Notes under the pieces: model-generated
Databases searched by the model: none
What the model was told of the DNA's origin: nothing
What the model saw: the letters and a program-made list of their open reading frames with translations, nothing else
Program-made: the position numbers and the translations under genes
In this document: one piece after another, positions 44,782 to 47,966 of the stretch
Layout of the letters: each line of letters starts with the position of its first letter
How positions within the stretch are numbered: the first letter of the stretch is position 1
Source: Cellulomonas sp. URHE0023
GTDB lineage: Bacteria > Actinomycetota > Actinomycetes > Actinomycetales > Cellulomonadaceae
Assembly (NCBI RefSeq): GCF_000688475.1
Contig: NZ_JIAN01000005.1
Coordinates: 992,001-1,056,000, forward strand
DNA: 64,000 nt
Direction of reading: 5' to 3'

Positions 44782-45468
44782 TTACGGAGCGGGAGTGCTC
44801 GTGCCCGGCGCGACCGGGAGCTGCTCGCCATCGAGGATCATCTGGCCAGCACGCGCCTTCGTCTCGAACGGATCGATGCTCCACAGCTCGCTCAGCGCCC
44901 CGACGTCCTCGCTGGTGTAGCCGGCGTCCCAGAACGCGTCCCGCGCGTCCTGCTGGTCGTCCGACGGCGGCTCGGCAGGCGCCGACGGGGTCACCGGTGG
45001 GGTCTGCCCGTCGAGGATCATCTGCCCTGCGCGCGCCTTCGTCTCGGTGGCGCCGATGTTCCACAGCGCGGACAACGTCTCCATGTCGTCGACCGTGTAG
45101 GTGGCCCAGAAGGCCTCGTACTGCTCGCGCGTGTACCCGTCCGGCATCGCCGACCAGTCGATCCCGACGGCGTGCGCGACGTTCTCCACCGTCCGTGCGA
45201 CCGGTGAGTACGGGTTGGCCGCCGCCGCAGCACCCGCACCCGCGACGACCAGCACGGAGGTAACGACGCCCGCGGCGACGACCTTCGCGCTGCGGCGCAC
45301 CAGAAGGTTCACCGGTGCCTGCCCGAGCTGGGCGAGCTCCGCCTCGATGCGAGCCGTCACGACCGCCGGGTCGGGCTGCTCCGTAGCGCGCGAGCGCAGC
45401 GCTCGGTTGATCCGCTCGATGAGCTCGGCGTCGGCGGGGTCGTGCGCGTCGCGAGAGTGCTCGTTCAT
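44782..45468 (-). CDS. Anti-sigma-like membrane protein with two surface repeat modules
   Basis: 228 residues. A cytoplasmic N-terminus (about 1-60; ADAELIERINRALRSRA) and one membrane helix (about 65-87) are followed by an exported part with GIDWSAMPDGYTREQYEAFW and two repeats of the pattern YTxxDxxxLxxLWxxxxxETKARAGQMILDG. The start overlaps the stop of the sigma factor gene (45465-45468), the usual place for a membrane anti-sigma factor. The exported domain is paralogous to the secreted protein at 47194. I know no named family for it. Confidence 0.75.
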   Translation of the reverse strand: MNEHSRDAHDPADAELIERINRALRSRATEQPDPAVVTARIEAELAQLGQAPVNLLVRRSAKVVAAGVVTSVLVVAGAGAAAAANPYSPVARTVENVAHAVGIDWSAMPDGYTREQYEAFWATYTVDDMETLSALWNIGATETKARAGQMILDGQTPPVTPSAPAEPPSDDQQDARDAFWDAGYTSEDVGALSELWSIDPFETKARAGQMILDGEQLPVAPGTSTPAP

Positions 45469-46070
45469 GACGTCTCCGGAGGGGTCGTGAGGTCGATCTG
45501 TCGCAAGGTCGCCAGCGCGCGGCTGGCATGGGAACGGACGGTGGCGCTCGACGTGCCCAGCACGTCGCCGATCTCCGAGTCGTCGAGCCCCTCGTAGTAC
45601 CGCAGCACCAGGACGGCGCGCTGCCGCGGCGGCAGCTCGCTGAGGCGCTGCCACATCGCGTCGTCCTCGACCACGTGCTGGGCGTGGTCCGCCTGCGGGG
45701 CGATGCGGGCGTCGAGGACGTCGTCGGTCGTCGTGTGGATGGTGCGCACGTGCCACCGGCGACGCCACGACAGGTGCTCGTTGGTCACCATCCGCCGCAG
45801 GTACAGGTCGGGCCGCGCCATGAGCGAGATGCGCGTCCAGCGCACGTGCGCGCGCAGCAGAACCTCCTGGACGAGGTCTGCCGCGGTGTGCGGGTCGCCC
45901 GTGAGCACCGTCGCGTACCGCAGGAGCCCGGGAAGGTGGTCGCGGACCACGTCGTCGAGGTGTCGGGCGACGACCTCCGGCGCGGCGGCGACGTCGGGGT
46001 CGACAGGCGCCGGCCTGACCTGGGGGATCGCGGCACTGTTCGGCCCGCGCGCCGATGCCCACGTCGTCAT
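45465..46070 (-). CDS. SigE-family RNA polymerase sigma factor
   Basis: 201 residues. Region 2 DHLPGLLRYATVLTGDPHTAADLVQEVLLRAHVRW and region 4 LPPRQRAVLVLRYYEGLDDSEIGDVLGTSSATVRSHASRALATLR are clear. TVLTGDxHxAxDLVQExLLRAHxRW identifies the SigE-family of actinobacteria. The ATG overlaps the stop of the amidoligase gene and its own stop overlaps the repeat membrane protein, so the three are translationally coupled. Confidence 0.92.
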   Translation of the reverse strand: MTTWASARGPNSAAIPQVRPAPVDPDVAAAPEVVARHLDDVVRDHLPGLLRYATVLTGDPHTAADLVQEVLLRAHVRWTRISLMARPDLYLRRMVTNEHLSWRRRWHVRTIHTTTDDVLDARIAPQADHAQHVVEDDAMWQRLSELPPRQRAVLVLRYYEGLDDSEIGDVLGTSSATVRSHASRALATLRQIDLTTPPETS

Positions 46071-47122
46071 CGGCGCACCACCGCCAGCAGCTCGTCCAGC
46101 GCGGCGTGCGGATCGAGGTCCGCTCCGGCACCGGGCCGGGGCAGCGGGCCATGCTCGAGGCAGCGCCGGAGCACGGCCTCGACCACCGCGGCCGACCCCA
46201 CGATCGCATCGGTGTCGATCCCGCCGGGCAGGATCCGCACCTCCACCGTCTCCCGCAGGGGGCGCGCGCTGACGAGCTGCGTGAGGTTGACGTCGGCGTA
46301 CTTGGTCAGCCCTGTGGCCCGTGCCGCGTCCCGCAGCGGTACCCAGCCGCCGTCCTCCCAGGGTTCCTCGACGAGCTCGACGAGTGCCTGCGGCAGCGGG
46401 GCGAGCCGCACGCACTCAGGGTTGGTGCCCAGAACCGACCACAGCACCCCACGCCAGTGGCCGAAGAGCCGGACGAGGTTCGCGAAGGCCTGCGGCGCGC
46501 GGAACGGAGCTGCGTCCAGGTGCACGTGCACCGCAGCCTCCTTCGGAACCGTGAAGCCGAGGTCCCGGGCCGGCGCGAGGAGCTGCTCCAGGGCGTCCCG
46601 GTGCCCGGCGGCCAACGGCGGCGTGATGATCTCGCACGGACGTTCGCGCCCTGGCGGCAGCGGCAGCGCGACGGCGACGGTCGCGCCGGCCGTGTCGTCG
46701 ACGCGCGCCGCAGCGGGCAGCACGTCGACACCGACCCCGAACAGCTCGGCGACCGGTTCCAGCACGGTGCCCAGCGAGGCCTCCGGGTCCGCGTGCCGCT
46801 CGATCAGCCGCAGGAGCCGGGCGTCGTCGGACAGGACCCGGTACCAGCCGCGGTGCCCGGGACGTCCAGGCACCGCGGCGAGGTCGGCCGAGATCGTGAT
46901 GTCGTCCACCACCCTCGCCACCGGGCGCCCGTCCACGTCGACCACGTCGAACGCCGGGGACAGGTGGCGGAAGACGCCCACGCCCGGCACCGTCGACGGC
47001 TCGCTGTCCGCGTGGAACGACCGGCGGACATGTCCGTGCACGCGTGCCGCGATCTCGTCAGCAAGAACCTGCCGGTCGGAACCGGCAGGCGCCAGCAGCT
47101 CGACCTCGAAGCCGGTGCGCAT
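46067..47122 (-). CDS. Amidoligase family protein (glutamine synthetase-like COOH-NH2 ligase)
   Basis: 351 residues from MRTGFEVELLAP; GTG 47137 is an alternative start. The opening FEVELLAPAGSDRQVLADEIAARV, the central VHVHLD and the late VEVRILPGG are the acidic/His/Arg positions of the amidoligase_2 group, which has the glutamine synthetase/gamma-glutamylcysteine ligase fold and joins a carboxylate to an amine using ATP. No signal peptide. It sits between two paralogous repeat protein genes and overlaps the sigma factor gene, so its target may be a peptide or the repeat proteins themselves; this is inference. Confidence 0.8.
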   Translation of the reverse strand: MRTGFEVELLAPAGSDRQVLADEIAARVHGHVRRSFHADSEPSTVPGVGVFRHLSPAFDVVDVDGRPVARVVDDITISADLAAVPGRPGHRGWYRVLSDDARLLRLIERHADPEASLGTVLEPVAELFGVGVDVLPAAARVDDTAGATVAVALPLPPGRERPCEIITPPLAAGHRDALEQLLAPARDLGFTVPKEAAVHVHLDAAPFRAPQAFANLVRLFGHWRGVLWSVLGTNPECVRLAPLPQALVELVEEPWEDGGWVPLRDAARATGLTKYADVNLTQLVSARPLRETVEVRILPGGIDTDAIVGSAAVVEAVLRRCLEHGPLPRPGAGADLDPHAALDELLAVVRR

Positions 47123-47193
47123 GGTCAGGGTGTCCACGTGGGTGCTCGTCTCGTCGGAGGCGTCGTGCGTCGGGGTGCCGGGGCGGTCTCGGG

Positions 47194-47850
47194 TCAGGAC
47201 GAGGCGCTCGTGGGCGTGCTGCCCGGCGCCACCGGAGGAGTCTGCCCGTCCAGCAGCATCTGCCCGGCGCGCGCCTTGACCTCGGTGACGTCCGTGCTCC
47301 ACAGCGTGCCCAACGCCTCCGCGTCCTCGATGGTGTAGCCGGCAGCCCAGAACGCGTCGGCCTGCGCCGGGGTGTAGCTGCCGGACGTCGACGCCGACGA
47401 CTGCCCGTCGGCGGGTACGGCGCCCGGGTTCGCGGAGCCCGCGTCGGCGGCGCCCGGGTCGGACGGGGCCGACGCGGTGTCATCGACGTCCTGTGTGCCA
47501 CTCGGAGCGATCGGCAGCGCTTCCCCTTCGATGAGCATCTGGCCTGCCTTGGCCTTGGTGTCGGTGGTGTCGGTGCTCCACAGCGCGCCGAGCGCCTCGA
47601 CGTCCTCAGGGGTGTACCCGGCGCCCCAGAACGCCTCGTACTGGGCCTGCGTGTACCCCTCCGGCATCGACGACCAGTCGACGCCCGCGTCGTGGAGCGC
47701 GCCGGCGACCGCCTTCCCGACGGCGGAGGTCGGTGCGACGGCGAACGCAGCGCCCGAGCCGGCGACCGACAAGCCGGCGGCGAGCACGCCCACGGCGACC
47801 AGTCGTCGACGCGAGCGGCGGGCGGCGGGCGTGGTGGTGGTGGGGTTCAT
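47194..47850 (-). CDS. Secreted repeat protein, paralogue of the anti-sigma-like protein
   Basis: 218 residues. A signal peptide, RRSRRRLVAVGVLAAGLSVAGSGAAFA, is followed by GVDWSSMPEGYTQAQYEAFW and two repeats (about 75-108 and 172-207) of AGYTxEDxEALGxLWSTDxTxxKAxAGQM. A Ser/Asp/Gly-rich spacer joins the repeats. The domain matches the exported part of the protein at 44782 along its length. It starts the probable four-gene operon that includes the amidoligase and sigma factor. Function unknown. Confidence 0.8.
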   Translation of the reverse strand: MNPTTTTPAARRSRRRLVAVGVLAAGLSVAGSGAAFAVAPTSAVGKAVAGALHDAGVDWSSMPEGYTQAQYEAFWGAGYTPEDVEALGALWSTDTTDTKAKAGQMLIEGEALPIAPSGTQDVDDTASAPSDPGAADAGSANPGAVPADGQSSASTSGSYTPAQADAFWAAGYTIEDAEALGTLWSTDVTEVKARAGQMLLDGQTPPVAPGSTPTSASS

Positions 47851-47966
47851 CGGGTTCCTCCTGGAGCGTGGCGGTGGTGCCTTGCCCTCTTAGAACGCGG
47901 CTCGACGCCCAGGTGTGGAGTCACCTCGCCCTGAAGTTGTGCCCTGGACCTCACAGCCCGACAGCG

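Follow-up and report, generated by a model that had tools for sequence, protein, structure and literature searches.

An amidoligase and an exported repeat protein kept together in two phyla: a candidate enzyme-partner system

A four-gene locus in Cellulomonas

The subject of this work is a minus-strand locus of four genes, here called A to D, in a 64,000-nucleotide stretch of the genome of Cellulomonas sp. URHE0023 (the window), in which an earlier note, made from the sequence alone, had seen a possible sensor and substrate system made up of an amidoligase and a sigma factor set between two paralogous surface repeat proteins. Comparison across genomes shows that the conserved core consists of amidoligase and repeat protein, the four-gene unit being one form only. 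This pair looks like an undescribed enzyme-partner system, for signalling or for protein modification, no description of the pairing having been recognised in the open-licence literature as judged from search listings.

Reading the window bears out the layout that had been described. Gene A (47194..47850, minus strand, like all features that follow) encodes a secreted repeat protein of 218 residues, in which a signal peptide (recognised by eye, as were the other export signals and transmembrane (TM) helices mentioned below) precedes two repeat units, at residues 74-114 (47509..47631) and 167-207 (47230..47352), each with a near-invariant lysine (Lys99, codon 47554-47556, and Lys192, codon 47275-47277) and a tryptophan (Trp91 and Trp184). 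Gene B (46067..47137) encodes an amidoligase (PF12224) in which no signal peptide was seen, and its start is uncertain, GTG at 47137 and ATG at 47122 being the likeliest in an open reading frame (ORF) that opens at 47302. Gene C (45465..46070) encodes an extracytoplasmic function (ECF) sigma factor of the SigE family (TIGR02983), and gene D (44782..45468) an anti-sigma-like protein with a cytosolic N-terminal segment, one TM helix (approximately residues 64-86) and two extracytoplasmic repeat units, at residues 120-160 (44989..45111; Lys144, codon 45037-45039) and 179-219 (44812..44934; Lys204, codon 44857-44859). The four-base ATGA overlaps between B and C (46067-46070) and between C and D (45465-45468) are both real, and the exported parts of A and D are indeed paralogous, from signal peptide or TM helix to C-terminus (96 of 203 residues identical by BLASTP, E 9e-51). 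Upstream of A, at 47891..47918, lies a promoter-like element, CCACA...CGTTCTA, which the ECF sigma factor encoded in the operon is likely to recognise. In this genome there is one amidoligase of the B kind; the repeat genes number three, one of which lies on the same contig at a distance of some 130 kb.

Amidoligase and repeat protein stay together

B and a profile of the repeat were each searched over the same 200 genomes of the family. Using repeat and amidoligase profiles built from many of the loci later counted, the amidoligase is found in 41 genomes (a weak match of 83 residues in G081, E 6e-5, left out) and the repeat in 45, leaving out eight genomes with weak matches mainly to the signal/TM part of the profile (E 1.7e-5 to 8.9e-4) and including G099, whose ORF has just 88 residues, one unit and no clear signal. 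All 41 amidoligase genomes have the repeat. The four genomes with the repeat only are a complete one in one contig, with a single-unit repeat protein (G189), one that is 83% complete (G133), one in which the repeat lies on a 3.1-kb contig (G143) and one with no amidoligase detected (G053), whose repeat is a degenerate ORF of 76 residues with threonine in place of the conserved lysine (L129:2492-2722). In a phylum set of 396 genomes, amidoligase and repeat occur in the same two genomes, G000 and G478, leaving out three weak repeat matches confined to positions 1-75 of the 208 in the profile; the same four of 105 genomes in an alphaproteobacterial family set carry both, three of these four having given rows to A5. 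Finally, in an alphaproteobacterial order set of 398 genomes, over which only the repeat was searched so that amidoligases without it would be missed, the repeat is present in 14 and an amidoligase adjoins it in 14/14. Repeats lying mostly away from the enzyme, or a different conserved partner for it, were the outcomes that the earlier note had named as telling against its proposal; what emerges is the repeat as conserved partner in two phyla.

Gene order tells the same story. The Cellulomonas-type set comprises 42 amidoligase genes: L076 and, the window's own included, 41 of the 43 family matches (G130 and G195 are absent from it). In 42/42 a repeat gene lies on the same strand within 2.6 kb. 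The repeat gene is directly upstream in 40, the sigma gene is present in 39 and the downstream repeat gene in 38, an arrangement that is not due to chance; two loci (L042, L067) run into contig ends. All ten Actinoplanes-type loci have the order sigma, anti-sigma-repeat, amidoligase, and in two other actinobacterial loci (L083 and L130), both paired, a four-unit repeat protein stands directly before the amidoligase with no sigma match within 2.6 kb. In proteobacteria, the repeat gene adjoins the amidoligase in 18 of 19 distinct loci (L185, which repeats L100, and L188, which repeats L105, are each counted once), divergently in 11 of the 18 and downstream in L161, L186 and L187; at the exception (L093) it is in the same genome on a different contig, while the neighbour in L104 is a diverged secreted protein that the repeat profile matches weakly. 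L077-L082 and L087, most of which repeat loci of the genome sets, do not enter the counts of genes or units, the arrangement in L077 being the same. When four genes flanking the locus in the window were sought in 52 loci, they recurred in 6 (L087 being a second record of the L037 locus).

Could common descent of a single locus be the whole reason why these genes are neighbours? The near-constant order in the Cellulomonas-type set, many of whose genomes are close relatives, would fit this. However, the pair stays together while orders and orientations differ (sigma first in the Actinoplanes type, divergent or with the repeat downstream in proteobacteria) and the tested flanks are mostly unshared, which argues that it has been kept together through rearrangement; moreover, the L093 genome keeps both genes although they lie on different contigs. 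Mere hitch-hiking is thus very improbable, and we regard the association of enzyme and repeat as firm. The sigma and anti-sigma genes, which were integral to the system first proposed, do not belong to the conserved core and look like an add-on, since the pair has no sigma match close by in L083, in L130 or in the proteobacterial loci. What stands of that proposal is the partnership of enzyme and repeat, together with the sensor role discussed below.

Two variant loci deserve a mention: in one genome (L050, G160) a second amidoligase copy lies behind a repeat gene of a third class, without a sigma gene, and in another (L064, G171) there are two tandem copies of the operon, one of them without gene A directly upstream.

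The repeat domain and its fusions

A and D match no significant family in Pfam, NCBIfam, PHROGs or PADLOC, and the repeat proteins scanned against LPD26 (PF18842) are likewise without a match except for the one at L095 (28.6 bits, for a cut-off of 27). In the AlphaFold2 model of A, an actinobacterial protein and the sole repeat protein folded, each unit forms three helices, with predicted local distance difference test (pLDDT) scores mostly above 90 inside units and low elsewhere (mean pLDDT 70.5, predicted template modelling score 0.39). Among solved structures, with homeodomain, UBA and other three-helix domains compared, there was no convincing match to the repeat unit.

In nearly all its forms the repeat is extracytoplasmic, following a signal peptide (A and most proteobacterial proteins), one TM helix (D and its relatives) or a TIR domain plus TM helix, the exception being an 88-residue ORF at L056 with no clear signal. 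The TIR-TM-repeat fusions lie beside the amidoligase in two alphaproteobacterial genomes, G828 (L161; TIR_2 match in Pfam at E 1.1e-19) and G938 (L186; E 3.5e-20). In the first, one strand carries (L161:1-6038) an HlyD-type adaptor, the amidoligase, the fusion, an ABC ATPase and two FtsX-like permease ORFs (adaptor, amidoligase and TIR confirmed by Pfam, ABC ATPase and FtsX-like ORFs named by eye); such exporter genes are not beside the L186 fusion or L187. Because the cytoplasmic part is swapped (anti-sigma-like, TIR or none), the repeat is suggested to be a new extracytoplasmic input domain. The sensor role that had been proposed for the surface repeat is supported by these fusions to anti-sigma-like and TIR modules, as well as by a shared promoter-like element.

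The TIR_2 fusions raise the question of a conflict system, in which the pair would sense phages or competitors at the envelope and the TIR or sigma output would trigger a response. A patchy distribution among genomes and the one repeat protein just above the LPD26 cut-off would suit this idea, which is nevertheless quite improbable: none of the four proteins scanned matches PADLOC, searches of plasmids, phages and viral contigs turned up no relative of the amidoligase, the regulon is seemingly limited to the operon itself, and no effector gene was recognised in flanks that are not systematically annotated.

Sigma factor, anti-sigma-like protein and promoter

C just passes the TIGR02983 cut-off (142.5 bits, for 141.55, in NCBIfam) and matches Sigma70_r2 and r4_2 above cut-off in Pfam. 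D matches no Pfam family at E up to 1, and hence no known anti-sigma domain, so that its label rests on gene position, the single TM helix and the N-terminal segment. Such segments look alike by eye in 48 sigma-adjacent repeat proteins, and a P[DEG]P[AG] motif, the sole motif counted, is present in 23 of these 48 vs 1 of 43 other repeat proteins. D may bind C. As in SigE-family ECF operons, the sigma gene is overlapped by a gene for an anti-sigma-like protein with one TM helix and a conserved promoter-like element lies upstream; unlike in ECF sigma/anti-sigma operons, the outer part of the anti-sigma-like protein copies a repeat secreted by the same operon, and an amidoligase is encoded inside it.

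The pattern [CG]CACA-N15-18-[CG]CGT[CT] is found upstream of A in 33 of 38 loci vs 3.3% of 4000 random 370-bp windows, although it was derived from the same loci and the former count is no independent test. It is missed in L042, L050, L051, L052 and L056 (L040 and L064, with no upstream repeat gene beside the amidoligase used, were left out). The element of the window (47918-47891) matches with 0 mismatches, and the genome holds no second site with up to 2 mismatches. Since the sole site in the genome is at A, C probably drives its own operon, and would be the sigma factor that uses the 47891-47918 site; the data fit an autoregulated, closed module. The same promoter-like element precedes the repeat genes of G189 and G133, in which no amidoligase was detected, and in 4 of 10 Actinoplanes-type loci (L086, L090, L091 and L106) a TGCACA...CGTCGA pair is seen by eye near the listed start of the sigma ORF.

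ECF sigma/anti-sigma pairs commonly respond to envelope signals, which, with nearly all forms of the repeat placed outside the cell by signal peptide or TM helix (the L056 ORF again excepted), would be in keeping with an amidoligase that acts on the envelope, modifying a precursor of the cell wall or some other component. The modified wall would be bound by the repeats and monitored by their anti-sigma and TIR forms. Against this unlikely alternative, the pair was not seen to have any wall gene as a recurrent neighbour, though most flanks are unannotated, and the patchy spread (41 of 200, 2 of 396 and 4 of 105 genomes) would be odd for a general wall modification.

The amidoligase and the near-invariant lysine

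B matches PF12224 (Amidoligase_2) with 57.8 bits for a cut-off of 22 in Pfam, as do its counterparts at L095 (85.3 bits) and L161 (40.2 bits); its nearest named relative (80%) is from Cellulomonas chitinilytica. Its fold is predicted to be that of a carboxylate-amine ligase of the glutamine synthetase/gamma-glutamylcysteine synthetase (GS/GCS) type, and small-molecule ligases tied for its best structural match. To our knowledge, the chemistry of Amidoligase_2 enzymes is predicted and few of their substrates are known. B shares with that family the profile match and the predicted ligase fold, and differs from it in its partner, here an exported repeat protein without significant Pfam family; a glutamine-amidotransferase-like peptidase and an AIG2 cyclotransferase, which we take to be the usual partners, do not adjoin B (Pfam, immediate neighbours in the window). 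The predicted fold is also similar to that of PafA/Dop, the enzymes of pupylation, which were not listed when PDB sequences were searched using hmmsearch with profile A4 (E up to 10), though a distant relationship may exist; the difference is that the partner is here exported. Graspetides, cross-linked ribosomally synthesised and post-translationally modified peptides made by ATP-grasp enzymes, are likewise brought to mind, as a dedicated ligase is encoded here next to a protein whose repeats have conserved Lys and Asp. B, however, matches PF12224 only, and not ATP-grasp, and in place of a short precursor it has for partner a membrane sensor or an exported protein made of repeats.

One lysine of the repeat unit hardly varies. 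In profile-based alignments, which favour units keeping it, lysine occupies the site in 173/173 Cellulomonas-type, 28/28 Actinoplanes-type and 8/8 other actinobacterial units (209/209 in total, with no arginine) and in 62 of 65 proteobacterial units (the others having 2 Arg and 1 Ile); units were skipped if the alignment up to the lysine position covered fewer than 12 residues, 7 more ended before it and L101 is not in the count. Elsewhere in the Cellulomonas-type set arginine outnumbers lysine (244 vs 56), yet arginine takes the conserved site in 0 units, and in 55 of the 88 proteins the sequence from the first unit onward contains no further lysine. A tryptophan is equally constant in Actinobacteria (209/209 units). 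Since the repeat is found beside the enzyme in two phyla and in several gene orders, and each of its units has one near-invariant lysine, it is a concrete candidate for a substrate or a receptor.

The reading that we favour, with a probability of only a little over one in three, is that B would form an amide on the conserved lysine before export, the result being read out through the anti-sigma or TIR copies of the domain. B would be a cytosolic enzyme that uses ATP to make amide bonds, and its partner would be the exported repeat domain, which occurs both free, as secreted protein A, and in the anti-sigma-like D, where it forms the outer part. Every unit would receive the amide on its near-invariant lysine, either ahead of export or in the course of it, and the acid joined there might be a small acid, an amino acid or the side chain of an Asp or Glu close by. 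Since D carries the same domain, the cell might read the extent of modification, or what the domain meets outside, and C, once released, would transcribe its own operon from the 47891-47918 element. The pairing, paralogy, promoter-like element and lysine constraint come from sequence, the ligase fold is predicted and export signals were judged by eye; the lysine as acceptor, the identity of the acid and the direction of the signal are what we infer. The earlier suggestion that the amidoligase modifies a surface repeat protein has indirect support in the near-invariant lysine, a putative target. A broader version, namely a new post-translational modification system spanning two phyla, in which the amidoligase conjugates an acid to one lysine per exported repeat unit and outputs are interchangeable (anti-sigma in Actinobacteria, TIR in Alphaproteobacteria), is rather doubtful.

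Several observations weigh against modification of the lysine. Inquilinus- and Roseomonas-type proteins have mostly lost it while the amidoligase is kept, one L149 unit has, by inspection, a methionine at the site, and the lysine is kept in 5 of 6 units from genomes without a detected amidoligase.

In the main rival, nearly as likely, the product would be a small amide, either a metabolite or a signal resembling a peptide, which is released from the cell and bound outside by the repeat as its receptor, with the conserved Lys and Trp in the binding site. Carrying or buffering the ligand would then fall to the secreted form, and reporting it to the form fused to anti-sigma or TIR. This possible scheme accounts for the existence of sensor and carrier forms and for the swapped cytoplasmic outputs, the adaptor, ATPase and permease ORFs of L161 would fit export, and the tied structural matches of B are small-molecule ligases. 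It sits less well with the exporter missing beside L186 and L187 and not noticed in the covered part of a further batch of neighbourhoods (L097 and parts of L096 and L098 lying outside it), with the secreted repeat protein without linked receptor in most proteobacterial loci, and with the 0 Lys-to-Arg changes in 209 actinobacterial units, in our judgement stricter than usual for an ion-pair contact. By analogy, each of these two readings would resemble known kinds of system, lysine conjugation by GS-fold enzymes for the one we favour and signal synthesis plus receptor for the other.

Neighbouring genes and other repeat genes

Beyond A and C, the window encodes an aminotransferase and then an E1 dehydrogenase (Pfam). 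Actinoplanes-type repeats (L084-L086, L088-L092, L103 and L106) are unusually lysine-rich, lysine making up 9.7% of their non-site residues and being far above arginine. Lastly, third-class repeat genes lie outside the operon (L055:6995-7579 and L133-L137), where the full promoter element of the operon is, by eye, absent; several of them have a GGTCTAGGGT-like stretch upstream, and all six genomes concerned have the amidoligase.

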